This document shows, one piece after another, positions 14,878 through 53,040 of a stretch of DNA of 53,040 nt (position 1 is its first letter; every line of letters begins with the position of its first letter). Under the pieces are notes generated by a model. That model ran no database searches. It saw nothing but the letters and a program-made list of their open reading frames with translations, and was not told the origin of the DNA. The stretch is from positions 1 through 53,040 of the forward strand of contig DASXVO010000087.1 of assembly GCA_036504215.1 (NCBI GenBank), written 5' to 3'. This DNA is from Vicinamibacterales bacterium. GTDB taxonomy: Bacteria; Acidobacteriota; Vicinamibacteria; Vicinamibacterales; Fen-181. The translations under genes and the position numbers were made by a program.

Positions 14878-15229
14878 GGGGGCGACTTGGCTTCGACGGG
14901 GGTATAGGGCCGTGGGATGCATGCCGAGCCCCATCGACTCGTAAATCCGGTGGAAAACAACATAACTGCGGAACCGCAGCTCGCTCTCGCTGCTTAACTA
15001 ACAGCGACGTCCACCTCCAAGTTGCCTGCGCGCGGGGGACGGGATGTCAAACAGGCAGGCTGGCCGTTCGAGGGCGTTCCGGACCTTGGATGGCGAGACG
15101 ACATCGGGACTAGCGACTGGCGGTCTTAGCCTCTTCCCCAGGCTGGTCGCGAATCAACAGAAGAGGACACGCATGTAGAGTCCTGCGGTAACGTGCTCTC
15201 GGACGCGGGTTCGACTCCCGCCGCCTCCA
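14878..15229 (+). ncRNA. ssrA: Transfer-messenger RNA (tmRNA)
   Basis: The RNA starts with GGGGGCGACTTGGCTTCGAC and ends with GGTTCGACTCCCGCCGCCTCCA, the standard tRNA-like ends of one-piece tmRNA. GGGGGCG (14878-14884) pairs with CGCCTCC (15222-15228) including one G-U pair, and A15229 is the discriminator. The CCA end is not encoded. The tag frame ends ...LALAA-stop at 14995-14997. Read back to GTG at 14950 it gives VENNITAEPQLALAA, with the exact resume codon uncertain. tmRNA with SmpB frees stalled ribosomes and tags proteins for proteolysis. Its 3' end is a common integration site and is repeated twice further right in the window. Confidence 0.96.
15210..15229 (+). repeat. Putative attachment site core, copy in ssrA (attL)
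   Basis: The last 20 bases of ssrA, TTCGACTCCCGCCGCCTCCA, recur exactly at 30305-30324, and their last 18 bases at 34018-34035. Copies of a tRNA or tmRNA 3' end lying downstream in the same orientation are the classic footprint of integrase-mediated insertion that restores the RNA gene. Confidence 0.8.
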
Positions 15230-30182: not shown

Positions 30183-30304
30183 CTTCAGAGGACCGGAGAG
30201 GACGCCGGTGGACGTCGAGACGGGCTGGAAGTCGCTGTTCTAGCAAGCACTTAGACCAGAAGTCGCACGCCATCAATGGGTTGCGAAAAAGGTGCTCCTG
30301 AGAT

Positions 30305-30324
30305 TTCGACTCCCGCCGCCTCCA
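30305..30324 (+). repeat. Putative attachment site core, second copy (attR 1)
   Basis: TTCGACTCCCGCCGCCTCCA is identical to the last 20 bases of ssrA and in the same orientation. The sequence on either side is not tmRNA. This marks the likely right end of an element of about 15.1 kb starting at ssrA. Confidence 0.75.
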
Positions 30325-33844: not shown

Positions 33845-34328
33845 GAGGATCAGTCTAGCCGGGATCAGCTGCCGCGTGCCGCTCCAAGGACCGGGGCGTC
33901 GTGCTGGGGCTGATTTGGGGGGTTGGAACGCGGGATCAGCGGATCACGCGTGTTGCGAGGTCACGACTTTCGGAGAAGACATAGAAACAGCCCGGTTCTT
34001 GAAAACCCTGTCAAGACCGACTCCCGCCGCCTCCATTCGACTCGCCTGCCACCTGCCTTCGGCGAGCCGCAGGCTCGCTCATGGCAGGCCCCCGGTGGGA
34101 AAATGCCCTGAGCGAGCGACCGAAGGGAGCGAGTCGAAGGGCAAGATCTCCACTCTCAGTCCGCGTCAGGTGCGAAAACTCGGCCGAGGACGGATCTCCG
34201 ACAAATAGGCGTGTCGACTGCTTCGAGGGAGCTTGCGCCTCGGGAACCTCGGCCCGATCTGCGGGCCTACGATACCCCAGGCTTGCATCCCTTGATTTTG
34301 GGGCGGCCCCCGCGGGCACGCTTGGGCC
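33845..34328. other. Intergenic region with the third att-like repeat
   Basis: No gene is visible in these 484 bases. It holds the upstream region of the minus-strand helicase gene, the 18-bp att-like repeat at 34018-34035, and a nested hairpin just beyond it: GCCTGCCA (34044-34051) with TGGCAGGC (34082-34089), enclosing GCGAGCC (34062-34068) with GGCTCGC (34072-34078). The right part leads into the transposase gene. Confidence 0.6.
34018..34035 (+). repeat. Putative attachment site core, third copy (attR 2)
   Basis: CGACTCCCGCCGCCTCCA matches the last 18 bases of ssrA exactly; the two bases before differ (AC instead of TT). Same orientation as ssrA. It may be the right end of a second element stacked in tandem, carrying HicBA and the TOTE-like gene, or the outer end of the whole island. 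Confidence 0.7.
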
Positions 34329-35751: not shown

Positions 35752-38700
35752 ATGGCGCTCCAAACGTCACGGCTCGCCGTCGATGCCCTGGCCATCGTCA
35801 AGGACCAGCCGGCAAACACACTTCAACCTCCGCTACCTGACGGGATCCATCTGCGGTGGTCATTCGACCGCACGGCGGGCTTCCCGTGGTACGGCTACTA
35901 CTTGTTCCGCCGCTCCCATAATGCGGCGGACCGGCAGGCTCGACATCCGGCACTGGAAAGCCTTGCGATTCAGCCGGGCGCCACCAACGTAGTCACGAGC
36001 GACGGCGAGTTCTCGAGCGACAGCAGCCTCGCAGTCGTGAACTATACGGCTCCGGGTGTTCCTGCGGCCCGCGGGTTGGATCTATCCGGCCGCACCTATC
36101 TGCGCTTCGCGCCGTCAGAACTCGTGAGCCGCGTGGTTGTCCGCGTGGGCCTGCGCACGACGATAGCACCGCCCTCCGCCATCGTGCTTTCGGCCTGGGC
36201 GCAGGATCCATCCAAGGGCGGCATCCCGATCGTCACCGCCAACAGCGCTGGTCCGGCGAACTCGGTGGTGGAAGCCTCTGTCGAAGCGGACGGAATCGTC
36301 GCCATCCAGATCACGACGGGCGACGGCGTGCTGGTACAGCTCAGTTTCGTGCCGATGAGTGACGGCGCATTGGTGGGCTGGAAGGAAGTGCCGGGCATCT
36401 CGTATCCGTTTACGCTTCCGCTCTCACACCCCGATTACCCGGCGTCGCCTGGACCGGTGAACCTCTCCGCCGCCGAGGCACAAGGACTCGCTCGCGTCGA
36501 GTACGGCTTGCCAACCGCGTGGGCCGGCACTCGATTTCAGGATCTGCACACGCAGTTGGTCACACTCGTCCAGGGCGGTCCAACAGGTCCGTCGATGGCC
36601 AGCAAGTCCGTCTCGATCCTGACGCCGCCGGCGCAACCCGCCGTTCCCACGTACTACCCCCTCGATCTCGTGCTCGTTGGCGCACTGAATCCCGCACTGG
36701 CCCAGATCGTCGGCGTCTATTGGATCGACCAGGCCAAGGCGTCCGGCCAGGATCCGATGTTCGCAACAACGGTGTACGACTACATGTTGGTGGCCGCCCA
36801 CCAGCAATCGCTCGGCACGACCGCCGCTGACGCGCTTCGCTGGCTGCGGCTGAATGGCCTCAGCACCGTTGATTCGTGCGTCATCTCGAACAAGAGTCTC
36901 CTCACTCCCGCGCCTCAGCTCGTTCCGCCGACGGGCAGCGAATGTTACGCCCTGCCGAGCGGCGGCCTGCTGCCAATCGACGCCGGTTTGTCTCATCGCA
37001 ACCACGTCGGGCTGCGGTGGGATCTCAAAGGCCCGGGGCAACGCGCCATCGATCCGCGCGCGGTGATGTATCACGTGTGGCGGACGGATCTCGGCACTGC
37101 GGATCAACCCGCGACGCCCGGCACCTACACGCCGCTCACGGCTCAAAGCCCCGTCGTCATCGTCGCGCCCGACGCGCCGGCACAACTGCCCGCCCCACCT
37201 CCCGACTGGCCGCCAGATCCGCTCTTGTACTTCGATCTCCGGCTGGCGGACGGCTGGTACGGCTACACGGTGAGCGGTGTCGACCTGTTCGGCCGGCACA
37301 GCGCGGCGAGCGCGCCTGCACCTTGGCGCCAGTGGTCGCCGGCGCCCATCCCGGCGCCGTGGTACTTCAAGCAGCCGGCTGCGGCCGACATGGTGGTGCA
37401 CCCGACCGCCATCCAACTCCTCGACCGCTCGCTGCCGCCGCCGCCGACCGGCATCCAGGCGCTCGCGCTGGACGATGCCGATCCCACGCTGGTGAAGGAC
37501 GCCGCCTATGCGACGTGGCGCGCAACCATCGTGGGCGCGGCCTGGTTCCAGGCGCTGACGAGCGACGGGCAGCGCACGTTCACCGGGCTCCGCGTCCGCT
37601 GGCTGTGGACGCACGCACACATGCGCCAGGCGCCCGACGTGCAGGAGTTCCGCATCTACTTCCAGTCGGGCCAGGTGGATGTGTTGCAGGGGACGGTCGT
37701 CGCTGTGACCGCCGCCACCGCGACCGAATCGGATCTGGTGACCGATATTGCCGGCAACCGACCGGCCGACACGTTTGCGGGCGCGTCGATTCGCGTGGGA
37801 CTCGACGCCTTCAAGATCGAGTCGACGCAGGCAGGCTCACCTCTTCGCCTGCGCGTCACCAACATCGGCCCGTTGAGAGATGTTGCGCCGCAGTCGAACA
37901 AGAGCTGTTCGATCGCCATCCCCGAGGGGCATGTTGAGTTCGTGGATTACACCGATCCAACGGCATGGGAGGAGCGTTTTGCGATCGTCCCGTACGCCGA
38001 TTCGCGGGGAGTGGCCGTACAGATTCCGGCAGCGGACGCGCTCGGCGTACTCCTGGACGGCGTTGGAGCCGCCGTCGCAGGCACTCGCGTCAGTCTGGAC
38101 GGATTGCCGGACTTGTCGGGCCTGGCCGGCGTCGGCGAGCAACTCGTGCTCGATGCCGACACGAATCGCACGAACCGCACATACCTGATTGTCGCGGTAG
38201 ACGATACCAACAAGCAGGTTGAGGTCGACGGATCGCCGAATACCGCTGGCGCGCTGTCGGCGTGGCGCATCGTCTACCCCTTGCGCAGCTACGATGTCCT
38301 GCTTCCGCTGGCGACAGACGCAGAGCACAGCGGCATTTCGCTCGCCACTCCCCTCGCAAGACCTGTGGCGTACGGCCAGGTGAGCGTGAGCGCCGCCGAT
38401 CAGAAGTCGTACGCGCGCGATGCACGCACGACGGGTCGCCTCGCCAATCGCAACGGCAACGAGAGCCCGGTGGGCAACAAGGCCACTGTCTTCCGTGTTC
38501 GTCGCGAGCCTCCGCCAGCGCCGACTCTGCCGCCAGCGGACTCTGACGTACTGCTCGCCACTCGAGCCGACTACCTGGCACATTCGTTCTTCACCTTCCG
38601 ATGGCTCCCGATCGCGAACACGCAGACCGACGTGTTCCGGGCTCTCGACGAATCGGTCTTCGACGCCGACTGGGAGAAACCGGTTGCCGAGCGCCTCCAG

Positions 38701-39765
38701 CTCGATCCCGTTCAGAATTCGCTTCACCGCGCGCTCTTCCCGGGTGCGTCCGCCGAGCCTCGGTGGGATGACGTGAAGTGTCAGGCAGTGGCGGACGAAC
38801 TGAACGCGATCACCGGCATGAAGGCCGCCGGGGCCACTCGCGCCGCAGCTCTGGCGGCGTATCGCGCCCTCAGCAACGATGCCCAGCGCGTCCTCGCCGG
38901 ACTTCCGGGCAACGAGCGGGCGTTCAGCCAGATCACGATTCGGCCGCTCGACTCGACGGATCCGGCCGTCTCCGATCGTCGCGGACCTGATTCCCCCGAC
39001 GGCTACACGGCGAATCCGGCGCTGCGTGCGTTCGAAGACACGCTCGACGGGCGCTCGAGCAGCCGGTACTTCTACCGCGCGGGCTCGGTTGACGCCGCGC
39101 ACAACCGCAGCGCGCAGCTGAGTCCGTCCACACCACCAGTCGCGTGCCCGGACGTCACGGCACCGTTGACGCCGTCGATCACGAAAGCGATCGGGGGCGA
39201 TCGGCACATCACGCTGCAGTGGGCCTCGAACCGCGAGCGCGACCTCGCCGAGTACCGCGTCTATCGCTCCGACACCGAGCACGACGCGCGCGACATTCGG
39301 CTGATGACGAGCGTTGGCATCGTGTCGCCTGTCACCGGCGGCCCTGCCGCGCAGCCCGCCGAGATGATTTGGACCGACACACCAGTCGCCGGCGGCAAGA
39401 ACTTCTACTATCGCGTCGTCGCCGCTGACACTAGTGGCAACGCCTCGGAGGCGTCGGCGAGCCTCCTGGCCCGCGCCTATGACGACGAGCGGCCGGATCC
39501 TCCGCAGTGGGGTGCCACCACGACGGTCGGCAACGATGTGCGGCTGACGTTCGTGCTCGCCGATCCAACGCATCGTCCCCTCGTCCAACGTTGCGACGCG
39601 GATGCCTACCTTCCGGCCTGGAACAACCTGACGTCGTGGCTGCCCGCCGGCACCGGCGAGTGGACCGACTCGACGCGCGTGCCCGGCCGCGACTATCTGT
39701 ACCGCGTTCGCGTGCAGGACGATCGCCAGCGGGTCAATCGCCTCTTCGTCGAGTCGAGGGTGTAG
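35752..39765 (+). CDS. Large protein with fibronectin-III-like modules, first gene of a giant cluster
   Basis: This 1337-residue protein has no signal peptide. Near the N-terminus (about 28-55) [26 protein letters not shown] looks like a fibronectin-III-type start. A second module is near 420-530 ([36 protein letters not shown]). The clearest fibronectin III domain is at about 1133-1245 ([57 protein letters not shown]). Between them are long Ala/Pro/Thr-rich beta stretches. No enzyme motif is visible. The gene ends 2 bp before the next start, so the cluster is co-transcribed. Probable extracellular or particle-bound scaffold; inferred. Confidence 0.72.
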
Positions 39766-39767
39766 CC

Positions 39768-42320
39768 ATGGCGACGATGTTCTCCATGTTCCTGCCGCCG
39801 GCCGCGACCAGTGCCGCGTCCGTCTTTCGCGAGAAGACGCCGTACGGGCCCTATACCATTTCGACCGGCGCGGGCTTTTCGGTTGGCGTCGTGATCGAAA
39901 TCGCGGAGACGGCCCCGTCCGCGCAGCGGACGGTTCGCGCGTGCTGCGGGGGCTGGCTGAAAGTGAGCGGCACGCAGGCTGGAACGAGCGCGACGGATCC
40001 GGATGCGTCGTTCGTCCTTACGCTCATTCCCCTGCCGCCTCCCACGCTGGCGCTTCACGATGTCAGCCATCAGTCCGCGTTCGAGATGCCGACGGCCTTC
40101 GTGTACGCCGGGATCGATGCCGCGAGTGTCAAGGCCACCCTGGCGACTCAGATCGATCGGAAGATCTTCGATCGACGATCCGGACGTCTGATTCAGATCA
40201 GCAGCAACATCCCGGTCGACACCAAGTGGGCTGCCTTCTGCGACGGCAAGCTCCAGATTCCGCTCGCGGCCGGCGACTCGATAGGCGAAGTGAGCGCCAA
40301 GAGCCTGGACTCGGGGTACCGAAGCGTCGGATTCGCGGTACGAACGAATTCAGGCGGTGCACTCGACACCACAACCGAGCCTCTCAACTTTCTCGATCCC
40401 GCCCTCCTCTTCACGCGTCTCGCCGCGTTGAAGCTCTCCGGCGGCGCGGACGCCATCGATGCGGCCGACCGGACTGATTCGTGGCTCGACATCGCCACGA
40501 CCGATCGCACCAGCGTCACCATTCGCGATGAATGGAACACGCCGCTCATCGACGCCACGCAGCAGGTCGTCGTGTCGGATGGCGTCACCTCCCAGTCGAT
40601 CGCACTCACCGTCGATCGTCAGGGCACGTTCGTGCTTCCGGCGGGTGGCGCGGGCCCGTATAGCATCACGCTGGCGGGCCGCAAGCTGACGCTGGCCACG
40701 AGCGACTTCACTGCCTCGGACAGCGTGCTCATCACCCCGACGACCGGCGCCCACCACGTGATCGGCACGGTCCGTCCGGAAGACTGGTTTCATCCAACCA
40801 CGCCGTCGCACGCGACATCGGCGACCGAGCTCCCGTTGTTCACGGAAGACAACGAAGTGGAATCGCTCATCGACGGCCTGGAGGCGTTTCCGCTCATCGT
40901 CAGCGACTTGAAGAAGATCGATGCCTCGACGGGTTTCTTCCTCTTCACCAACTGGTGGACCGAGCACCAGTTCGAGCTGGTGCCGGGTGATGCGGACTCG
41001 ACTCTCGAAAAGCTGATGAGACAGGCAGACCTCGCGGGCGCGCCGACGCGAGCGCTGATCTTCAACCACTTCGCCGATCTCATTGTGCCCACGCCATTTT
41101 CGCCAGACAACGCCCGCGCATGCGTGTACATGAATGCGTTGGCGAACGGACAAGCGGTCCTCGACGGCCGTACCCACCATTTCTTCTTTCCGCCCGCGGG
41201 CGTGTATGTCGCGGCCCAGACGTGGGCTCTGTACGACCCGGCAGGCGCGGTCGCCCACCTGGCCGACCTTATGACCGGCTCCACCGGCCCGAACCATTTG
41301 GGAACCCATCACACGAAGTCGGCCGTCATCCGCAATCGGCAGGGCACCGTGGCCTATGTCGGCGGGATGGATTTCAATTCCAATCGACTGGACAGCCGCG
41401 AGCACGCCGCGAGTGCCACGCGCTTTCACGACGTGCACTGCCGCGTCAGGGGTCCCGCCGCGAGTGATTTGACAAAGGTGTTCGTGGATCGCTGGGCCGA
41501 TCATCCCGACAATCAGCCGGCGGCGCGGCAGTTGGCTATCGGCGCGCCCGCGAGCGGCGCCACGGGCACGAAGATCGAACCGACGATCAACTCTCCAACC
41601 TCCCGGTCCACATGCTTCGTACAGATCGCGCGAACGATCCCGGCAGGCGTCACGAACTACGCGCCCAATGGCGACCGCACAATCGTCGCGACGATCAAGC
41701 AGGCCATCGGACGGGCGCGACGATACGTGTACATCGAAGACCAGTACCTCTGGGCAGCCGATGTCAGCGCCGCACTGCAGGGCGCACTTCCCAACATCGA
41801 TCACCTGATCGTCGTCGTGGATCACAGCGGCGGCGAGTCGAATGCCGCGCCATCGAACCGGGCACACTACCTGTTCCTCGACCCGCTCCACCGGGCCTTT
41901 CCTGAGAAGCTGCACGTCTTCAGCCTCGGCAACCACGGCTCCGAGTACAAGATTCACACCAAGGCCGTGATCGTCGACGACGTGTTTGCGACCGTCGGAT
42001 CGGCCAACATGGGCCGCCGCAGCTACACGCACGACACCGAAACGAACGCCAACATCATCGACGGCAAGATCGAGGATGGGGCACGAAAGTTCGCGCGCGA
42101 CCTTCGCGTGCGCCTGTGGGCCGAGCATCTTGGCTGGCCGGACTCGGCGAACTCCTATCAGCGCCTGGCCAACATAGACGAGGCGGTTCGTTATCTGACG
42201 ACCCCGACTTCCGTGTCGCGCCTTCTGCCATTCGATCTGAACGCAGGCGCCGGCACGGGCTACATGCTGACGTGGGACTCGCTCTGGGAGCCCGACGGCA
42301 GCGCGCCTCCGGCACCCTGA
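39768..42320 (+). CDS. Phospholipase-D-like protein with one intact and one degenerate HKD motif
   Basis: This 850-residue protein starts at ATG 39768, 2 bp after the previous stop. The N-terminal ~370 residues are beta-rich with no known domain. The C-terminal part is a phospholipase D fold: the first motif is HTKSAVIR at about 515-522, where the usual aspartate is Arg; the second is HTKAVIVDD at 730-738 with H730, K732 and D737, followed by [27 protein letters not shown] after the first motif and YIEDQYLW also fit. It could hydrolyse phospholipid or nucleic acid, or bind only, given the altered first motif. No signal peptide is visible. The next gene starts 10 bp later. Confidence 0.78.
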
Positions 42321-42330
42321 GCGACCGATC

Positions 42331-45300
42331 ATGGCCCCCGACTACTCCTATCCATCGCCGCTCAGCACCCTGCTTCCGCCCGGGTTTGGGCTCGATCAGG
42401 TGCTTCCGCTCGACGCCGACACGCTGGCGGCGATCGATGCGGCGGTGTCGTACGTCGATTTCACCTCGAGGTCCACGCCCCAAGGCCTGGGGCTGTCGCT
42501 GACGGTCTTGATCGAGGGCGAACTCGCGATTCCGATCCCTTGGGTGGACGGGCTGGCGCTGGTGTTTGGCGGCGCGAGCGGCGCCGGCCTCACCGCTTTC
42601 GAGGCGTCGATCGCACTCGGGCCCGGCACGTTCGAGTTCCAGGTTGACGACGTTGAAATCGCGCTGCGGCTCCCCCCGGATATTCTCAAGCCTGCTCCCG
42701 GTCCCAGTGGGACGGCTGCGCCGTACGCAGAGATCGCCGTGCGGGGCGGCTTCTCGATCGACCAAGCGCTCAATCTACGGTTCCAGGGATTCGATCGGCT
42801 GTCGTTGAGTCCGGTCACCATCGGCGACACCGGCATTGTCATTTCGGCCGACGACGTACGTCTCGACCTGTCGCCGACAGAGACCATTCCCGAGGTGGTG
42901 GCCGCGGGATTCGACGAAAGCTTCATCGGTGTCTTCATCGGGAATGCCCGCGTCGAGCTGCCGGAGGGCCTGCCCGCCCTCGCGCCGGAGGATCTCGTCC
43001 TGCAGAAGTGCGCGGTCGGATCGGGCGGTGTCAGCGGCCGCCTCTCCGCCGTCTACACGCCGACGTACGACGAGAACGCGAAACAGTTCAGCGGCCGCGG
43101 CGCCGGCGAATTGTTCACGGTTCCGTTTGCGCTCACCGAAATCGCGATCGAGCTCAAACACGGTGCTCTCGTCGAATCGAAGATCGCGGGCAAACTGCTG
43201 CTGCCGTTCTTCGACCATCCCACCGACGTTGAAATCGCCCTGAACCTCGACGGGCGACTGACCGTCAAGCTGGCGGCGCCCAATGGCCTGTTCACCCTGG
43301 AGAGAGCCGACCTGCTGTCGATGACGCTCAGCAGCCTCGGCTTCGACATCGCCGACGGGTTGCTCACCGCCAGGATTTCGGGATCGCTTACGCCATTGAT
43401 CGCCGGCATCAAGTGGCCGACCTTTACTGTCAACGAGCTATCCATCGACTCGAAGGGTCACGTCCGGCTCGCCGGCGGGTGGATGGCTCTGCCGAGCCAA
43501 TACGCCCTCGACTTCCACGGGTTCCGCATCGAAATCACCAAGCTCGGATTCGGGAAGACGGACGACGGCGGAAAATGGGTGGGCTTCTCCGGCGGCCTGA
43601 AGCTGGTGGAGGGGCTACCGGCCGGCGCGTCGGTCGATGGTCTTCGCGTCATCTGGTACGAAGACGGACGGACGCCGCCGATCCGACTCACCCTTCAAGG
43701 CGTCGGAATCGAGTTCGAGATCCCGGAAGTGCTCCGGTTCAAAGGAGCCGTCAACTTCAGCGGTCCTCAAACCAGAACGCTTCCCGTTTCCGCCACGCTG
43801 CCGAGTGGCGGCACCGAGACGATTCAGCGCTTCGACGGTGCAATCAGTCTCGACCTGCTCGCCATCAACATGAGCCTCGACGCCACGTTGGTCGTCGGGC
43901 AGGCCACGGGCGATCGCGGCAACTACGGCTTCTTCGCCATCTATGTCGCCGTCGAATTGCCGGCGGGCATTCCGCTGGGCGCGACCGGCCTCGCGTTCTA
44001 CGGCTTCGCCGGGCTGTTTGCAACGCAGATGGAACCCAACCGGAAACCGGAGGAAGGTTGGTACGAGAACGCCGACGGCGGTCCGGGCTGGTACAAGCGC
44101 GGCACACCGGGCATCGTGGACCTGAAGACGAAGTGGGATCCGATGCCGGGCAGCCTCGCACTCGGTGCGGGCACCACGATCGGCACACTCCCCGACAACG
44201 GTCAGAGCTTTCACGGCAAGCTGCTGTTCGTGCTCATCCTGCCCGGGCCGATTCTCATGCTCGAGGGGCGGGGAGATCTGCTCAAGAAGCGCAGCCAGCA
44301 GGAGGGCGGCGGCACCGCCAGCGAGCCGCTCTTCCGCGCCATCGCCGTGCTCGACGGGCGCGCTGGCACGATGACGATTGGTCTCGACGCACGCTACAAG
44401 TACGGCGCCAAGGGCGAACTGCTCGACATCCGCGGGAGCGCCGAAGCGTTCTTCAGTTTTCAGGACGCGAGCGCCTGGCACATCTACATTGGGCGCAAAG
44501 ACCCACGCGAGCGCCGCATCGTCGCGACCCTGTTCCAGATCTTCCTGGCCAATTCGTACTTCATGCTGGATGGAAAGAATCCGTTCTTCCAGACCGGCGC
44601 CTGGATCGGATACGAAGCCAAGTACAAGTTCGGACCGGCCGCGCTCGAGATCAGCGCCTTCATCGAAGCCGACGCGGTCGTCAGCCGCAAGCCGGTGCAC
44701 TTCTTCGGCGAACTGACGTTGCACGGCGGCTTGAGCCTCAGCCTGTTCGGCCTGGGGTTCCGCCTCATCGTCCACGCGCACGCGGCCGCCGACGTCTTCG
44801 ACCCGCTACACATTCGCTTCGACTTCCACGTCGCGCTCGATCTGCCTTGGCCGCTGCCAGACTTCAGCGTTGACTTCTCCGCCGAATGGGGACCGTTCCC
44901 CGATCCGCCGCCGATCCCGCTCCCGCTTCAGGATGTGGCCGCCGAGCACTTGAAGGTCACCACGACGTGGCCTTTGAAACGCGACGCGACCGTGCCACTG
45001 CTGCGGCCCGACTACAACCGTGGCGACGACTTCCTCGTCGATACACCGCCGGTTTACTCCGAGCCGAGCGACTTCAGCGTGCTGCCGATCATCCCGCTCG
45101 ACGCGAGGATGCACCTGACGTTCGGCCGGCCGATGAACGACGATGCCAGGGTGGGTGTGAACCCGCAGCCGACGACGCCCGAGTGGGATCAGATCGGCGA
45201 TACCAGCAGTGGAACGGGGCCCGCGAGAGCACGCTTCAGCCTGCAGGAGATCACTCTCGCGAAGCGCACCGCGTCGGGGTGGACGAAAGTGGCGTGGGCG

Positions 45301-48300
45301 CCGAACCCAACCCCCGCCACCCCGCAGCAGCAGATGTACGGCTCGTGGGCACCGGTGCCGACGGCGAACGGCGCGCCCGGCGGCGTAGACCAGGTGAAGT
45401 TGTGGCTCTGGTCGAAGAATCCGTTCGACTACACCCGACACGCAGGACGCGCCTGGGACGAATGGACTGCGACGGCTCTTCCCGACTACCCGTGCGTGCC
45501 GGCTGCTCCGGATCGGGAGGATTGTTTCGATCTCTCAGATGTCGATCCTGGGAGAATCGGGTCCGCGCCGTGGCACCCGCCTGGATTCCCCGACGTCACC
45601 GTTCAGTTCGCGACGGTCGACGGTGCAACCGTCATCTCCATCACGACGCCGGGCGATGTCACTGGCGTCCGCGTGCGCCCATCCTCGCAGACCGACGCCG
45701 TCCTGCTCCGCTGCTGCGCCGACTTCCGCGGTCGGCTGCCGGGAGTCGGCTCCAACCCTCGCGTCGAGTATCGGTTCCGATTCGAAGTTCACACGGGGGC
45801 GGGCGGGGTGCCGATCCCGGCCGCTTCCAGCCAGATCGTCGCCGTGCCCGGCGTGGACACCGGCTTGGCGCTGGGACCCGAGATGATAGTCATGCTGCCG
45901 CGTCCGGCGATGACGATCGAAGCGCTGATTAGTCGCGCGGGATCGAACGCCTCGCTTGCCGGCTTCAAGGCCGACGGGACGTCAGCCGGACGCGTCGGGA
46001 TCTCCTCGGGTTCGAAACAGCACGTACGACTGAACGGCGACGGCATCGTTCGTCTGGTCGTCCGCTCGGGCGGCGAGGGCGTGTTGCATCAGATTTGCGA
46101 AACGTATTCGTCGTTGAGCGTCACCGACGCCGTCGACGGTCGTGGCACGAGGCTGGGGACAACCGCGGGAGGAAACGGAGGAGGAACCGGAGGAGGAAAC
46201 AACGAAGGTGTCGTTGTGACGGGTGGAAGCAATGGCATCGGTTCGGTGACCATCACCGTAGAAGCGGGAACCGACGCGGGACGGGTGTGCATCAGGCGGC
46301 CGCCCGATCCGAACGACGTGAACCGCCGCGCGACGATGAGCGATCATCTCCGCGACGAAACGGCTCGCTGGTCTCAGACAGGCGACGTGCTCGAACCATC
46401 CACCATCTATCGGCTGAAGATCGTGACCGAGGTCCAAGTCGAAAGCGATCTCTCCTTGAATGGATTCACGGCACCCTCGGGATCGAACACGGCCTATCAG
46501 TTGCTCCCGTCGCCAAAACAGGAGCAATACGCTTTCTTCCGGACAATGGGCCCGCCAGGCTTGGCGGACCTCTCCACTCCGGAGGGAGTGCCGGCCGACG
46601 TGCCGTTTGCCTGCGGCCTCGACAATCTCACGCTGTACGTCAAGCAGACGATTCCAGCGACGGTGCCCGCAGCAGGACAGGCGCCGTTCCTGGCGAGGCC
46701 CGTCTATCGGGCGTACGACGTGGGCGTGGAGTTCAACGAGGACTACGTCGATCTGATGTACCGGATTGCGCGCCGCGATCTCGTCCTTCAGCTGTACGAC
46801 GCCAACGTGCAGCCGGTTCGCGACTCGCTCGGGCGTCTCGTCACCCTCGTCAATCGATGGGGCCGGACCGAGCAACTGTCTCTGAGCGAAACGGACCAAC
46901 GCCTGGTCAAGACACTCAACGACGCCGGGTGCGCCACTATCAACGAATCTGGCATCCCTCATACCGGCGTGCTCGTTGCGCCGATCTCGGGCGTCGTGCT
47001 CAACGCCGACACGGTGTACGAGGCGCGGCTGGCGCCGCGGCTCATGCACGAGGATTTCGGGGCGCTCGACGCCGGGGCCGTACCTAATCCCGGCACTGGT
47101 GCCATCGGTAAGTGGGTTGCCGTCAACGAAAGCTCGGCGAGTCCTGCGTCGAGCTGGACGATTCGGGAGACCGGCACGCCACCGACCCACGTGGTGACGC
47201 AGACCGCCAACGTGCGCGGCGGCACCGACGACGGCAAGGATCCCGTGAAGCCGGGCGCGCTCTTGCTCGCGAGCGACGACAGCGGCCGTCCGTCGAGCGA
47301 TCCGACCCAGCCGGGCAACTGGTCGGATTACCAGACGATGGTCATACTTCGCGCAACCGCCCGCGACGGGGCGGTCGGGATCCTCTTCCGGTATCAGGGC
47401 GCCGGCACCTTCTACCGGTTCTCCATGGACGGGCAGCGGAAATATCGCCGGCTGGTGAAAGTCGTCAACGGCACGCATACCGTGCTCGCCGAAGATGACT
47501 TCGCGATGCAGACGGCCGTCGACTACCGAATCACCATCGAGGCGATCGGCGCGAGCTTGCGTGTGTATCAGGACGGCGACCTCGTGTTCTCGGTCACCGA
47601 CACGACGATCGCGGCGGGGCGGCTCGGCCTGTATTCGTGGGGGAGCCTTGCGCCGTGCTTCGCCGACGTCGCCATCGAGGATTTCGGACCGAGAGCCGTG
47701 GCCGCGTACCGCTTCAAGTTCACCACGTCCGACTTCGCCAACTTCTTCCACCACCTGCACAGTTACTCGGACGAGACGTGGCGAGCCCCGCTCGATCTCG
47801 CAACGCTTCGGACGAACGCCGCTCTGCCAGCCGACACGGCCACGGAAGCCGAGCACCGGGCCTATGCCGCCGCGGCGCAGTCGGTTCTTGGGGATCGGGC
47901 CAACCAGGCGCCTCACGGAATCCAGATCACACGGATTGAATCTGGCGGACAGGCCCAGGGCTTCCTCGTTGAAAGCCCGGAGCCTCTCGACTGGACTCGG
48001 ACATCCTTCACGCTCAAGACAGCGGATCGTCGAGTGGCCGCGCCGTTGCCTCCGCTGGACGTCAAGCTTACGGACGTCACGTTCGCGACGACCGACCTCG
48101 CGCAGCACTCCGTCTCGCTCGTTCTGTTGAACACCGCGGACCTCTCGGGCTGCCGAATCGAACGTTCCACTCTTCCCGGACCAGACACCGACGCGGCGAG
48201 CCCTCACGTGCTCCTCATCATTCGCGCGACCGGCAGCGATGCGGGGTTGTTGTTCCAGGAGACGTTCGGTCCCAACGCACTGGATCGATACGAAGTCATC

Positions 48301-51300
48301 GACCTGGAGCCGCCGCAGCCTCCGCCGACCTCGTACGCTTCGCGCTGGATCGTCGCGAACGGCCGAATCGAGGAGCGTAACGACTACCGGGGCGGTTCGC
48401 CGATGGCCGACGTGCTGCCCAGACGGCCGGGCACCATGGCCGTTCTCGAGACCTCGTTCGACAACGCTCGCATTGCCTTCACTCTGCAGACGCAAAGCCT
48501 GCGTGACGTCGGCGTGGTGTTCCGCTGCACGGACAGCGAGCACTTCTATCGCTTCTCATTCTCCCGGTTCGATCCGTCCTTCAACGGTGGCTTCCGTCGC
48601 CTCGTCAAACGCGTCAACGGCGTTGTCACTGTGCTCTGGGAAGACACCGTGATGACGGATACGAGCCGGCCGGTGCGCGTGACGATCGAGACCTTCGACG
48701 ATCGCTTGATCGGCTACGTCGATGGCTCGCTGGTGTTCAACGTGCGCGACAGCGAGCTGCCAGCCGGGCGGCCTGGCTACTACTGCTGGGGCAATACCCA
48801 GGCGTTCTTCGAGGAGCTCGAGGTCGAATCGCTCGAAGCCGATCCGGTACTGTGGGAGCCGCCGCTCGCGGCCAGCGACGAACTTCAGTTCTTCGATGCG
48901 CCACAGACACACGGCGGGCCGTCGATCTGGACCGTTGCCGGCGGTGTCGTCCTTCAATCGGCGCCGACGGCAGGCGATGACGGCGCGTGGGAGGTGGTCG
49001 CCGGAACGGCCGACGACGTCGCGGTAGGCGCTGATGGATCGGTGTGGTCAACACGCTCGCAGAGAAACCGATCGGTTCTCGCTCGATGGAACGGGCTGGC
49101 CTGGGAGAGCAAGCGCGGCGGCGGTGTGCGCGTGGCCGTCGACGGCGAAGGCAAGCCGTGGATTGTGGACGCGACAGGATCTATCGCCCGGTGGAATGGC
49201 ACGGCGTTGCAGCGACTGGCCGGCCGCGCCGTTGACATCGGGCTCGGCGATCCGGGTGCTCCCGCTTACATCGTCGGCACAAAGCCGGAGCTCGATGGCT
49301 ACGAACTGCTCTACTGGAACGACCCCGCGTGGCACGCCTTCTCGGGGGCTGGGGTCCGAATTGCGGTGGGACCCACCGGCGACCCGTGGGTGGTGAACGA
49401 CAGACATCAAGTATGGGTATTCGAGTGGGCGACCCAGGCGTGGCGGCAACTGCCGGGTGAGGCAACAGACATCGCCGTCGGCGCTGACGGCTCGGTCTGG
49501 ATTGCAGGAACGACACCCGCACCTGGCGGGGGGTTCGTCGTTTCGCGATGGAACCAGTTCGCCTGGGAAGCGGTGCCCGGCCAGGGCGCGACCGCGATTG
49601 CGGCCGGTCCCGACGGAAATCCCTGGGTGGTGACGAACACGCGACGCCTCGCGCGGTGGGTTGGCAATCGTGCCACCAAGCCAGGCGCGAGCGCCCTCGG
49701 CGGGCCACAGAGCCTGAGCGACATTCATCTGCGTGCGCGCCTTCGTTCCGACTCCGGCGGTGCGATCGGCCTCTACTTCCGCTATCGAGACGAGGGCAAC
49801 TACTACCGGTTCTCGATGGACCACGATGGCGTCTACCGTCGTCTCGTCAAGGCGGTCAACGGGACGGTGACAGTTTTGTGGGAAGACCACACGCAGTACA
49901 TGACCGGACGGTCGTACGACGTCTCTATTTGTGCGCAGGGCCGCTGGCTGTCCGTGTCGATCGACAGCGTGGCGCTCTTCACGGTTCAGGACTTCGATCA
50001 CGACGCAGGCCGCGTCGGCTTCTATGCGTACGCGAACCCGAGCGCCAGGTTCGAGAATGTCGTGGTGACCAACTCCAGGAGAACCGCCGGGCCGTGGACC
50101 ATTCGTGACGAAACCGCGACCGGCGCTCCGTCCTGGTGGCGGGTGCGCCGCGGCGCGCTTGCGCAGATCACGCGCATCGGCGAAGCCGACGCCAACGCGA
50201 ATATCGGAACCGATGCCATCGTGGGCGATCCCGCGTGGTCCGCCTATCGCGTGAGCGCGAAGATGTCGTGCGTCACCGGCGAAGCTCTGGGACTCGTGTT
50301 CTGCTATCGGAGCGACGGCAACTGCTATCGCTTGACCGTCGATGCGCAGCACAACCTGCGGACGCTCACCCGGCACGTGGCCGGCGTGCCCTCCACGTTG
50401 TGGCAGGCGCCGGGGGGATACACGCCCGGCGGTCCGGTGGTGCTGATGGTCGAGGCGTCGGGCTCGAACCTGGTGGGGTACCTGAACGGCGAGCGTCTGT
50501 TCGACGTCGCAGACCCGACGTTTGCCGCAGGCGCGGCGGGCGTTTCGTGCTGCCGGAACGACTCGTTCGAACTTGATTCGTTCGAAGTCCGCGAGCTTCC
50601 GCTCGCTGCGTCCGCGCTCTTCAGGGATCGGTTCGCCGAAAAGGATACGTCGACGTGGACCTTCGTGGACGGTGGCGGCGCGCTCAGGGTGTCGCGCTGG
50701 GTCGCACGCCAGTCCGTGCTGACGCGAACGCTCGATAAACGCTCGAGCCGCAGGCTCACAGCGGCGGAGATCGCGCGCACCCGATCGTTCGCGATCATCG
50801 ACCGTGATCTTCGGAGCGACGTGATGGTTGTCGCCGGCGTGACGCTGCACACCGCGGGAAGCGCGGGCGTGGTCGTGCGGCATCAGGACGAGAAGAACTA
50901 CGTGCTGTTCAGGCTGAGTTCCGCTCAGGGCCGCGCGGAGTTGATTGAGGTGACGTCCGGCGTCGCCGTGACGACATGGACGACGGCGATCACGATTGCT
51001 CCAGGTCGCGAACTGGTACTTCAACTGCTGCTGAACGGCGAATCTGTCCGGAGCTTCATCGACGGCGTACCGGCATTTGGTCCGACGCCGATCGCGGCCG
51101 GCCCTGGACGAATCGGCCTCTTCAGCGACGCGGACACGACGGCGGAGTTTGCGAGAGTGGCGGTCTATCCCGTCGATCGCGCGTTCAATACCTGGCTGCT
51201 GAGCGACGCCTTCGACAGGCTGGTGCCGGGACGCTGGACGTTCGTGGACGAGGGCACGACAAATGCGCCTTCTCAGTGGACCGCGGGCGCTGGTGCGCTC

Positions 51301-52200
51301 GGCCAGTCGGAGGCGATTGGCGACGGCATCACGAATCCGGCGCATCTGGACAAACTGGGCACAACCGCAGTGGCCGGCGACACTCTTTGGACCGACTACC
51401 GGGCCAGCGTCGGCATCCGATCGAGGGTTGCGGGCACACTGGGGCTCGAGGTGCGACGAAAGGACGATCGCACTTTCCTGCGATTCGAACTCGATTTCGC
51501 CGCGGGTGTCCGGCGGCTCATCAAGGCCGTCGACGGGGTGTTCTCGTCGCTCTGGGAAGATCGTGTGACGCTGGCGGCGGGTCGCGAGTACCTCGTCACC
51601 GTCGATGTTCAAGGCGATCAGGCGGCAGCATTCGTGGATGGCGTCGAAGTGTTTCGAGGGATGGACCACTCGGTGGCCATCGGGTGTGTCGGCCTCTTCT
51701 GCTACGCGAGCGCGGGGGCGGTGTTCTCCTCGCTTTCGGTTGCACCGGCTGTCTGGGTGCCGCACTACCAGTTTGGTTCGGAGCGGCAACTGCCCTCCGG
51801 CACATGCGTCCGCGTTTCGCAGGCCGCGCCGGCCGCCGGCACGACGCCTCGACCAGGCGTGATCGAACGGCAGATCGATTCCGACGCTGCGCAGGTGGCG
51901 CGGTTCCCCGCGCGTGGCGTTCAGCTTCGATTCGTCGCGCGAAATGGCCAGCCGGGTCACACGCGCGTCTTCCTTCCCGACACCGAGTTCGCCGTGTCTG
52001 TTGACGCACAGGTCGTGCGCAAGGTCGATGGCACGGGTGTGTTCGTGCTGCCGCGCACATCAACACAGCTCGGCGCAGGCGAGTATCGGTGGTGTGTCGT
52101 CTATCGCCGCCAGGGAACCGGGCTGCTGCGACTCTCTCAGAGCGGCGACACGAGCGACGAAACGGTGACGCTCGACGTGCCCTGGACGAGCGTGAACTGA
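42331..52200 (+). CDS. Giant beta-rich protein with LamG-like repeats and a tectonin-like propeller
   Basis: This 3289-residue protein has no Sec signal at its start. Residues 1 to about 900 are long amphipathic beta stretches with repeating patterns (GLSLSLFGLGFRLIVHAHAA and similar), of unknown fold. A Gly-rich linker (AGGNGGGTGGGNNEG) lies near 1278-1292. Six modules of laminin-G/concanavalin-like type follow at about 1570-1790, 1972-2170, 2461-2580, 2587-2756, 2763-2948 and 2956-3138, each with a variant of 'G(I/L)xFRYxxxxxYYRFSMDxxxxYRRLVKxVNG...W'. Between the second and third, at about 2219-2447, WSTRSQ- and AVGADGSVW-type repeats resemble a tectonin propeller. It probably binds glycans or surfaces; the role is inferred. 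Confidence 0.78.
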   Translation: MAPDYSYPSPLSTLLPPGFGLDQVLPLDADTLAAIDAAVSYVDFTSRSTPQGLGLSLTVLIEGELAIPIPWVDGLALVFGGASGAGLTAFEASIALGPGTFEFQVDDVEIALRLPPDILKPAPGPSGTAAPYAEIAVRGGFSIDQALNLRFQGFDRLSLSPVTIGDTGIVISADDVRLDLSPTETIPEVVAAGFDESFIGVFIGNARVELPEGLPALAPEDLVLQKCAVGSGGVSGRLSAVYTPTYDENAKQFSGRGAGELFTVPFALTEIAIELKHGALVESKIAGKLLLPFFDHPTDVEIALNLDGRLTVKLAAPNGLFTLERADLLSMTLSSLGFDIADGLLTARISGSLTPLIAGIKWPTFTVNELSIDSKGHVRLAGGWMALPSQYALDFHGFRIEITKLGFGKTDDGGKWVGFSGGLKLVEGLPAGASVDGLRVIWYEDGRTPPIRLTLQGVGIEFEIPEVLRFKGAVNFSGPQTRTLPVSATLPSGGTETIQRFDGAISLDLLAINMSLDATLVVGQATGDRGNYGFFAIYVAVELPAGIPLGATGLAFYGFAGLFATQMEPNRKPEEGWYENADGGPGWYKRGTPGIVDLKTKWDPMPGSLALGAGTTIGTLPDNGQSFHGKLLFVLILPGPILMLEGRGDLLKKRSQQEGGGTASEPLFRAIAVLDGRAGTMTIGLDARYKYGAKGELLDIRGSAEAFFSFQDASAWHIYIGRKDPRERRIVATLFQIFLANSYFMLDGKNPFFQTGAWIGYEAKYKFGPAALEISAFIEADAVVSRKPVHFFGELTLHGGLSLSLFGLGFRLIVHAHAAADVFDPLHIRFDFHVALDLPWPLPDFSVDFSAEWGPFPDPPPIPLPLQDVAAEHLKVTTTWPLKRDATVPLLRPDYNRGDDFLVDTPPVYSEPSDFSVLPIIPLDARMHLTFGRPMNDDARVGVNPQPTTPEWDQIGDTSSGTGPARARFSLQEITLAKRTASGWTKVAWAPNPTPATPQQQMYGSWAPVPTANGAPGGVDQVKLWLWSKNPFDYTRHAGRAWDEWTATALPDYPCVPAAPDREDCFDLSDVDPGRIGSAPWHPPGFPDVTVQFATVDGATVISITTPGDVTGVRVRPSSQTDAVLLRCCADFRGRLPGVGSNPRVEYRFRFEVHTGAGGVPIPAASSQIVAVPGVDTGLALGPEMIVMLPRPAMTIEALISRAGSNASLAGFKADGTSAGRVGISSGSKQHVRLNGDGIVRLVVRSGGEGVLHQICETYSSLSVTDAVDGRGTRLGTTAGGNGGGTGGGNNEGVVVTGGSNGIGSVTITVEAGTDAGRVCIRRPPDPNDVNRRATMSDHLRDETARWSQTGDVLEPSTIYRLKIVTEVQVESDLSLNGFTAPSGSNTAYQLLPSPKQEQYAFFRTMGPPGLADLSTPEGVPADVPFACGLDNLTLYVKQTIPATVPAAGQAPFLARPVYRAYDVGVEFNEDYVDLMYRIARRDLVLQLYDANVQPVRDSLGRLVTLVNRWGRTEQLSLSETDQRLVKTLNDAGCATINESGIPHTGVLVAPISGVVLNADTVYEARLAPRLMHEDFGALDAGAVPNPGTGAIGKWVAVNESSASPASSWTIRETGTPPTHVVTQTANVRGGTDDGKDPVKPGALLLASDDSGRPSSDPTQPGNWSDYQTMVILRATARDGAVGILFRYQGAGTFYRFSMDGQRKYRRLVKVVNGTHTVLAEDDFAMQTAVDYRITIEAIGASLRVYQDGDLVFSVTDTTIAAGRLGLYSWGSLAPCFADVAIEDFGPRAVAAYRFKFTTSDFANFFHHLHSYSDETWRAPLDLATLRTNAALPADTATEAEHRAYAAAAQSVLGDRANQAPHGIQITRIESGGQAQGFLVESPEPLDWTRTSFTLKTADRRVAAPLPPLDVKLTDVTFATTDLAQHSVSLVLLNTADLSGCRIERSTLPGPDTDAASPHVLLIIRATGSDAGLLFQETFGPNALDRYEVIDLEPPQPPPTSYASRWIVANGRIEERNDYRGGSPMADVLPRRPGTMAVLETSFDNARIAFTLQTQSLRDVGVVFRCTDSEHFYRFSFSRFDPSFNGGFRRLVKRVNGVVTVLWEDTVMTDTSRPVRVTIETFDDRLIGYVDGSLVFNVRDSELPAGRPGYYCWGNTQAFFEELEVESLEADPVLWEPPLAASDELQFFDAPQTHGGPSIWTVAGGVVLQSAPTAGDDGAWEVVAGTADDVAVGADGSVWSTRSQRNRSVLARWNGLAWESKRGGGVRVAVDGEGKPWIVDATGSIARWNGTALQRLAGRAVDIGLGDPGAPAYIVGTKPELDGYELLYWNDPAWHAFSGAGVRIAVGPTGDPWVVNDRHQVWVFEWATQAWRQLPGEATDIAVGADGSVWIAGTTPAPGGGFVVSRWNQFAWEAVPGQGATAIAAGPDGNPWVVTNTRRLARWVGNRATKPGASALGGPQSLSDIHLRARLRSDSGGAIGLYFRYRDEGNYYRFSMDHDGVYRRLVKAVNGTVTVLWEDHTQYMTGRSYDVSICAQGRWLSVSIDSVALFTVQDFDHDAGRVGFYAYANPSARFENVVVTNSRRTAGPWTIRDETATGAPSWWRVRRGALAQITRIGEADANANIGTDAIVGDPAWSAYRVSAKMSCVTGEALGLVFCYRSDGNCYRLTVDAQHNLRTLTRHVAGVPSTLWQAPGGYTPGGPVVLMVEASGSNLVGYLNGERLFDVADPTFAAGAAGVSCCRNDSFELDSFEVRELPLAASALFRDRFAEKDTSTWTFVDGGGALRVSRWVARQSVLTRTLDKRSSRRLTAAEIARTRSFAIIDRDLRSDVMVVAGVTLHTAGSAGVVVRHQDEKNYVLFRLSSAQGRAELIEVTSGVAVTTWTTAITIAPGRELVLQLLLNGESVRSFIDGVPAFGPTPIAAGPGRIGLFSDADTTAEFARVAVYPVDRAFNTWLLSDAFDRLVPGRWTFVDEGTTNAPSQWTAGAGALGQSEAIGDGITNPAHLDKLGTTAVAGDTLWTDYRASVGIRSRVAGTLGLEVRRKDDRTFLRFELDFAAGVRRLIKAVDGVFSSLWEDRVTLAAGREYLVTVDVQGDQAAAFVDGVEVFRGMDHSVAIGCVGLFCYASAGAVFSSLSVAPAVWVPHYQFGSERQLPSGTCVRVSQAAPAAGTTPRPGVIERQIDSDAAQVARFPARGVQLRFVARNGQPGHTRVFLPDTEFAVSVDAQVVRKVDGTGVFVLPRTSTQLGAGEYRWCVVYRRQGTGLLRLSQSGDTSDETVTLDVPWTSVN

Positions 52201-52738: not shown

Positions 52739-52845
52739 TTCAAGGGGCTCCGCCGACCAATTCGTGTTCTCTGTCGCCGCAGGGCTGAGGTGCGTGGGCC
52801 GCGCAGACGGCGGCGCCGTATCATGAACCGAATCGGAGGTTGGCG

Positions 52846-53040
52846 ATGAAACATAGGCCCCTCTCGCAGCGCGAAATGGAAGCCGTTCGCGAGTTCTCTA
52901 CACGCATCCGCGCGGCGCTCGGCTCAAATCTCCTGGAACTTCGGCTGTTTGGCTCCAAGGCCAGGGGCGACTCTCGGCCGGACTCTGATCTCGACGTACT
53001 CGTGGTCGTCACCGGTGATCGCGTGGGGGCTGAAGACCTG
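52846..53040 (+). CDS. Nucleotidyltransferase (MNT-like), 3' end outside the window
   Basis: The frame from ATG 52846, with GGAGG at 52835-52839, runs off the right edge after 65 codons. LRLFGSKARGDSRPDSDLDV (about residues 32-51) carries the nucleotidyltransferase signature GSxARG...SDxD, typical of the minimal nucleotidyltransferases (MNT) that pair with HEPN toxins as antitoxins. A partner HEPN gene would lie just outside the window. An aminoglycoside-type enzyme is less likely given the short N-terminus. Confidence 0.75.
   Translation, partial: MKHRPLSQREMEAVREFSTRIRAALGSNLLELRLFGSKARGDSRPDSDLDVLVVVTGDRVGAEDL

Follow-up and report, generated by a model that had tools for sequence, protein, structure and literature searches.

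A three-gene cluster with an exchangeable middle gene between two conserved genes for large proteins recurs in several bacterial phyla

The 53,040-nucleotide stretch of Vicinamibacterales DNA analysed here (the window; it is the complete contig DASXVO010000087.1, with the right flank visible only to position 53040, 840 bp past gene 3) contains three adjacent genes on the same strand that code for proteins of 1337 (gene 1, FN), 850 (gene 2, the middle protein) and 3289 amino acids (aa; gene 3, the giant). They are separated by only 2 and 10 bp, and these sizes and spacings agree exactly with the initial annotation of this DNA. Judged by their relatives in other genomes, the two outer genes are conserved families and the middle gene is exchanged between loci, which is new here; no description of the triplet was found in the databases and open-access papers searched. 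We are highly confident that the triplet is one functional module, and we regard a role of the middle protein as exchangeable cargo or effector as probable.

A scan of about 85,000 species genomes with an FN alignment returned 12 further FN loci in Alphaproteobacteria, Acidobacteriota, Actinomycetota, Chloroflexota and Myxococcota and in a Desulfuromonadales fragment, and tblastn searches of plasmids with FN and with the giant yielded four Mycetohabitans plasmids. On every sufficiently long contig, FN comes first, the giant comes last and one or two middle genes lie between them, with gaps of -28 to 90 bp within the module; the contigs L034, L036 and L039 stop short of the giant. The three Mycetohabitans plasmids inspected have the order FN, phospholipase D (PLD), DUF6603-type giant; the gaps, measured for two of them, are 18 and 14 bp. 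The same order was found in Microvirga, Rhodobacteraceae, Paracaedibacter, Solirubrobacter, Thermoanaerobaculia, Bryobacteraceae, Herpetosiphonaceae and Anaerolineales as well as in further Chloroflexota and Myxococcota genomes, the Myxococcota copy being divergent. The order thereby recurs, and the triplet co-occurs, across at least five phyla, which answers the question of its conservation raised by the initial annotation. FN shares 37-48% identity with its homologues, and the pairwise distances of FN and of the giant N-terminus are correlated (r 0.71, Mantel p 1e-4), although the two trees are not identical. This common order with tight spacing in several phyla, together with outer proteins that diverge in step, strongly supports the initial proposal of one system, and the family assignments obtained for the three genes do not link them to known, unrelated families in a way that speaks against it.

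The triplet is rare. Within the phyla sampled, the FN family was present in 4 of 396 genomes of Acidobacteriota, in 3 of 379 of the phylum of the Myxococcales hit and in 2 of 400 of that of Herpetosiphonaceae, counts that stand for the triplet and include a few partial matches. The carriers are soil and symbiotic bacteria of unrelated lineages; they comprise a fungal endosymbiont (Mycetohabitans) and the amoeba-associated Paracaedibacter. The mobile context of the loci includes plasmids, insertion sequence elements, a relaxase gene beside the Paracaedibacter copy and ssrA attachment-like repeats beside the window copy. Since synteny is conserved and the distribution is patchy, the triplet behaves as a mobile unit held together by selection. 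The FN family had no match in phage records or viral contigs, and a scan of genome contigs with the PLD protein alone as query gave no match. The gene directly upstream of the Myxococcales FN gene (L034 5409-9584) encodes a possible regulator of 1391 aa that has an HTH_3 domain at its N-terminus.

The middle gene varies in kind among these loci. It codes for a PLD in the window, Mycetohabitans, Solirubrobacter, Rhodobacteraceae, Herpetosiphonaceae (two in tandem) and one Thermoanaerobaculum. The Bryobacteraceae middle protein resembles a lytic transglycosylase (SLT-like; E 6e-4, just short of the cut-off, with GLMQ and AAYN motifs), and that of Microvirga is its homologue. One Thermoanaerobaculia genome codes for a middle protein with SGNH-like motifs (GDSW, GGND and DEMH), which has a homologue in a second Acidobacteriota genome (G406); Pfam at relaxed E-values gave nothing for this domain, so that the name SGNH refers to the motifs only. 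The Paracaedibacter protein is a beta-helix. G738, from the Myxococcales phylum, has a divergent triplet in which a HEAAH metalloprotease (zinc-protease) motif occurs in the first middle protein (L087 13668-14744, minus strand); a second gene, of 260 aa and no recognised type, comes next. A Chloroflexota middle protein consists of the N-terminal domain described below, a hydrophobic Gly-rich stretch and a short C-terminal domain, a layout resembling polymorphic toxins. Its pretoxin-like C-terminus had no convincing relative in the PDB and none in plasmids or phages, and the C-terminal part of the Anaerolineales middle protein had no Pfam match at relaxed E-values. Two Thermoanaerobaculia whose FN and giant proteins are 53% and 54% identical, respectively, differ in having an SGNH-like versus a PLD middle gene, and the two FN paralogues of one Herpetosiphonaceae genome are accompanied by a short adaptor-type gene in one case and two tandem PLD genes in the other.

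The N-terminal approximately 200 residues of the window PLD protein are homologous to the N-termini of non-PLD middle proteins; we refer to this domain as the adaptor. In a profile-profile comparison with five of these proteins, the window adaptor scored 39.6 (P 4.2e-5), compared with at most 19 for shuffled sequences and at most 15.5 for unrelated window proteins; leave-one-out scores were mostly 38-54, with two weak members at 25-27. The profile was found in the window PLD and in middle proteins of Microvirga, Myxococcales, Paracaedibacter, Herpetosiphonaceae and Chloroflexota. A conserved adaptor followed by a variable C-terminal domain is thus shown at the level of sequence. The initial annotation had suggested that the assembly is perhaps toxin-like; the exchangeable middle enzyme and the adaptor-plus-variable-domain layout support this indirectly and strengthen it.

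The PLD-like label that the initial annotation gave to gene 2 holds. Two Pfam families match above their cut-offs (PLDc_2, 5.9e-9, 36.3 bits against 27; PLDc, 5.8e-8, 32.9 bits against 21.9), and with the paired HxK(D) motifs this places the protein in the PLD superfamily; PDB matches include 7v53, a phospholipase D of 1099 aa, and eukaryotic PLD1/PLD-alpha. The H and K of motif 1 are retained in all PLD-type middle proteins compared. Phospholipid hydrolysis is a possible activity of the gene 2 protein, a nuclease or synthase activity being equally possible within the superfamily.

The 3289-aa protein is a composite of a predicted long N-terminal beta-meander and recognition-type modules. Pfam finds Tectonin, 3keto-disac_hyd (a LamG-like fold) and a partial DUF6603 domain. 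The six LamG-like modules and the tectonin propeller of the initial annotation were recovered by a module hidden Markov model (HMM), Pfam and a PDB tectonin 2 match. The HMM detects exactly six LamG-like modules (domain E-values 5e-62 to 2e-76); it was trained on these same six, so that its independent hits in relatives are what carries weight. Among the giants the number of LamG modules ranges from 1 to 6, as expected of a recognition region, and the tectonin stretch is missing from the Mycetohabitans giant. The model of aa 1-855 has 38 strands of at least 8 residues, with a side alternation of 2.49 compared with 1.45 for shuffled strands (standard deviation (sd) 0.18; about 5.8 sd above). 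It resembles porins, LptD, ushers and apolipoprotein B (ApoB; Foldseek E down to 2.7e-6, VIA-align Z up to 12.8), at root-mean-square deviations of mostly 10-15 A, a TM of 0.15 and a mean model confidence (pLDDT) of 61. The model points to a long-strand meander in common with porins, LptD and ApoB rather than to a proven fold, and it supports the presence of a large membrane-facing, lipid-holding or enclosing sheet in the giant.

The DUF6603 match of gene 3 covers aa 764-882 only (E 4.9e-7, 29.1 bits against a curated cut-off of 27) and reached 20 bits, under the cut-off, in a six-frame genome search. Given this partial coverage of the profile, the giant is assigned as a distant DUF6603 member. 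Distant relatives of its N-terminus occur on alphaproteobacterial plasmids, namely Paracoccus pAMI4 (L070 430-11440) and a plasmid of Azospirillum oryzae (L071), one of them annotated as 'outer membrane protein' with a 1114-aa neighbour of unknown kind. Canonical DUF6603 proteins of Acidobacteriota (L020-L026; G171, G076, G075 and G054) form a second type of multi-giant cluster without FN; it includes conserved neighbours of 1400-1700 aa with no Pfam family, a PhoD-like phosphatase in one case and a weak alpha/beta-hydrolase segment within another. A PF06841 tube gene was present in all four genomes with canonical DUF6603, compared with 26 of 247 genomes, the tube gene of G171 standing alone.

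The fibronectin-III-like label of gene 1 stood only in part. FN has no match in Pfam or NCBIfam, and weak fibronectin-III matches are confined to its last approximately 230 residues (PDB 5z06, E 0.032). In an AlphaFold model (m66ab30fe0867; mean pLDDT 58), aa 55-204, with values of mostly 63-85, align to carbohydrate-binding modules (CBMs) with VIA-align Z up to 12.6. On the basis of this model, a CBM fold is better supported for FN than the fibronectin-III assignment.

All three frames show codon-position GC of the coding type (GC3 of 0.78-0.80 versus 0.51-0.53 at position 2). The start of gene 2 is an ATG within a longer open frame that opens at 39507. Antisense open reading frames (ORFs) of 970, 853 and 660 aa beneath the giants were rejected as high-GC artefacts. 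The coordinates of the features are given in Table 1.

Table 1. Features of the three-gene cluster, in positions of the window.
Feature	Position	Strand	Length or residues	Basis and remarks
Gene 1 (FN)	35752..39765	+	1337 aa	First in module at all loci; ORF and codon usage
CBM-like beta-sandwich of FN	35914..36363	+	aa 55-204	AlphaFold model and VIA-align
FnIII-like region of FN	39064..39462	+	aa ~1105-1237	Weak matches only
Gene 2 (middle, putative cargo)	39768..42320	+	850 aa	Adaptor and PLD-like
Adaptor domain	39882..40358	+	aa 39-197	Common to non-PLD middle proteins; profile-profile comparison
PLD-like domain	40818..42146	+	aa ~351-793	tblastn/blastp to other middle proteins, Pfam
HxK motif 1, HTKSAVIR	41310..41333	+	H515-K517	Canonical aspartate missing
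HKD motif 2, HTKAVIVDD	41955..41981	+	H730-K732-D737	Canonical HxKxxxxD
Gene 3 (giant)	42331..52200	+	3289 aa	DUF6603-like beta-meander, LamG/tectonin; last in module at all loci
Conserved amphipathic beta-meander	42331..44895	+	aa 1-855	40-48% identity across phyla; model meb00d2d86231
LamG-like module 1	47104..47685	+	aa 1592-1785	Module HMM
LamG-like module 2	48283..48837	+	aa 1985-2169	Module HMM
Tectonin propeller	49012..49506	+	aa 2228-2392	Pfam Tectonin 6.5e-11; PDB tectonin 2, 1.1e-5
LamG-like module 3	49636..50079	+	aa 2436-2583	Module HMM
LamG-like module 4	50089..50604	+	aa 2587-2758	Module HMM
LamG-like module 5	50653..51183	+	aa 2775-2951	Module HMM
LamG-like module 6	51229..51756	+	aa 2967-3142	Module HMM

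The window copy lies close to mobile DNA. Copies of the 3' end (15208-15229) of the ssrA gene for tmRNA (14878-15229) recur at 30303-30324 and 34014-34035, with 20 and 18 identical bp on the 3' side, where no chance match is expected. This suggests two stacked tandem mobile elements of 15.1 and 3.7 kb integrated at ssrA, whose cargo comprises an HNH-like restriction gene and genes for a RepB-type primase, AbiJ-like, HipA and TOTE primase-helicase proteins. A transposase gene immediately precedes the triplet, which opens 1.7 kb past the last repeat, adjoins the ssrA region and is perhaps inside a further part of it. The TOTE-conflict-type protein (941 aa; 31019-33844, minus strand) combines an archaeo-eukaryotic primase, a superfamily 2 helicase and a DUF559 nuclease-like domain, and a tRNA-Gly prediction inside its gene on the same strand (33415-33484) is probably spurious. 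The genes 3' of the giant are not conserved among the loci seen. In the window, the start of a minimal nucleotidyltransferase (MNT, FGSKARGDSRPDSDLDV) at 52842-53040 on the plus strand is cut by the contig end; a nucleotidyltransferase/HEPN pair is also found downstream of the triplet in M. rhizoxinica, possibly by coincidence.

We consider the chances evenly balanced that the triplet is a mobile effector module in which conserved carriers are combined with a swappable enzyme that attacks the cell envelope. In such a module, the middle protein would dock through its adaptor on one of the giants or on both, and the LamG and tectonin modules together with the carbohydrate-binding fold of FN would fix the complex to glycans of the target, a neighbouring or host cell. 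The amphipathic beta-sheet of the giant would hold or shield the enzyme, or hand it on to the envelope of the target or through it. There the enzyme would cut membrane lipid in the case of PLD and probably peptidoglycan or other targets in the relatives. The presence of carriers among fungal endosymbionts and amoeba-associated bacteria counts in favour of this model. The initial annotation was right that the three proteins lack Sec signals: neither the window proteins nor the homologues tested have a hydrophobic N-terminal segment, as judged from hydropathy (no 19-residue Kyte-Doolittle mean within the first 60 aa exceeds 1.3). Because of this lack, release would proceed by lysis or another non-Sec route. 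For delivery of the middle protein to other cells, we put the likelihood slightly short of even.

Several points weigh against this effector module. Export, by a putative nonclassical route, and delivery are both presumed steps, and both structural models have low confidence (pLDDT 61 and 58). The SGNH, SLT, metalloprotease and pretoxin assignments go back to motifs or weak matches. Since the adaptor is missing from the PLD middle proteins of Mycetohabitans, Solirubrobacter and Herpetosiphonaceae, docking through it cannot be general. Antibacterial effectors usually come with an immunity gene; none is evident here, and the gaps inside the module leave no room for one. A more far-reaching version, which we offer only tentatively, is that of a new class of self-contained toxin-delivery complex, in which the DUF6603-type giant, through its amphipathic beta-sheet, and FN would carry an adaptor-docked, exchangeable enzyme to and into target cells without Sec, a type VI secretion system (T6SS) or an extracellular contractile injection system (eCIS). 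Plasmids and islands would have brought such a complex into at least five phyla, intracellular symbionts among them.

Alternatively, the triplet could supply contractile injection systems (CIS; eCIS or, in certain hosts, T6SS) with their payload or with accessory proteins: the giants and the enzyme would be loaded on a phage-tail-like injector whose genes lie elsewhere in the genome, or would assist delivery through it. The absence of known secretion or injection genes from the window, as initially annotated, holds for its Pfam-scanned genes. A wider search for export machinery, which the initial annotation had proposed, found tube (PF06841) and sheath (PF17482) genes together in 8 of the 14 triplet-bearing genomes or records and the T6SS gene for VipB in two others (Rhodobacteraceae and Paracaedibacter), against a background of 26 of 247 Acidobacteriota genomes for the tube and a reported eCIS prevalence of 1.9% of bacteria (PMC8213781). 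DUF6603 and the tube are associated in the phylum sample (Fisher p 4.6e-4), and on the megaplasmid of M. endofungorum about 58 kb separate the triplet from a complete classical eCIS (L060 15731-37525; NZ_CP062180.1 540730-562524). However, tube, sheath and VipB are all missing both from the window's own genome, the completeness of which is 100%, and from Microvirga; a CIS thus cannot be required, and we rejected it as the obligatory exporter. Moreover, no triplet was seen within any CIS cluster, few independent lineages underlie the association (2 of 3, p 0.03, after collapsing Thermoanaerobaculia), which a common antagonistic or symbiotic lifestyle could also explain, and proteins of 2,500-3,300 aa are large for a CIS lumen. 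We therefore regard this alternative as rather unlikely, although a CIS may help in some hosts.

Quite unlikely, too, is an extracellular or surface complex for degradation and adhesion that serves feeding and has no toxin role, in which the carbohydrate-binding giants keep a hydrolase close to polymers, hyphae or dead cells. Most recognisable extra domains would suit it, being carbohydrate-binding or hydrolytic (LamG/levanase-CBM, tectonin, CBM-like fold, PLD, SLT-like and SGNH-like), and some hosts (Myxococcales and Herpetosiphon) come from groups known for predation. Yet scavenging enzymes usually have a Sec-type N-terminus or a known sorting domain, neither of which was recognised here; exchangeable cargo with pretoxin-like and metalloprotease-motif members fits antagonism better, and the linkage to mobile DNA is strong. 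An intracellular anti-phage defence with PLD as abortive effector and the giants as sensors is very improbable. The defence-rich region of the window (AbiJ-like, TOTE, HipA and HNH) and the weak match of gene 2 to DrmC (E 2e-4), a PLD-family part of DISARM, are in its favour, but the DrmC match reflects the shared PLD motif only, genes 1 and 3 have no PADLOC match, the LamG, tectonin and CBM modules are of the extracellular type, and the middle gene is elsewhere beta-helix or cell-wall-hydrolase-like. Chance adjacency of unrelated large genes, for which nothing was found, is refuted by the same order in at least five phyla and is practically excluded.

If the effector module is real, it adds a type of delivery or carrier for antagonistic enzymes whose parts are now annotated as 'hypothetical protein', 'phospholipase D-like' and 'DUF6603', and it gives a testable role to DUF6603 (PF20248), of which the open-access literature searched makes no mention. 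It would also point to where new enzymes that cut lipids and cell walls can be found, and Mycetohabitans, Microvirga and Solirubrobacter would be tractable carriers for studying the role of plasmid-borne giants in bacterial-fungal symbiosis or competition.

Among known systems, the triplet would work like the Tc (ABC) and RHS-type toxins without being a member of the Tc toxins, and it has in common with them large Sec-less carriers, an exchangeable, putatively toxic enzyme and glycan-binding parts; it differs in that the three proteins have no RHS, TcA, TcB or TcC match in Pfam or NCBIfam and the cargo is a separate gene instead of a C-terminal extension of the carrier. With polymorphic toxins (CdiA, MafB, Rhs and LXG) it shares a conserved N-terminal adaptor, a variable C-terminal domain and one pretoxin-like stretch, but it has no trafficking domain of a known class and no visible immunity gene, and the two co-conserved giants are foreign to known systems. 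Effectors of CIS and T6SS are comparable in their genomic co-occurrence with CIS, and PLD and peptidoglycan hydrolases are typical T6SS cargo, whereas the triplet lies outside CIS clusters and its own genome lacks CIS and T6SS markers. Gene 2 resembles the PLD superfamily (nearest solved members 7v53 and PLD1/PLD-alpha) in its PLDc_2/PLDc matches and two HxK motifs, and departs from it in a first motif without aspartate, its fusion to an adaptor and its place between two giants. The likeness of the giant to DUF6603 is a partial profile match, and NCBI calls the Mycetohabitans homologue a DUF6603 protein; canonical DUF6603 proteins of the same phylum match at E 1e-115 to 1e-140 and lie without an FN neighbour in other multi-giant clusters. 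By this comparison, the giant of the triplet is placed as a divergent branch of DUF6603 with added LamG modules.
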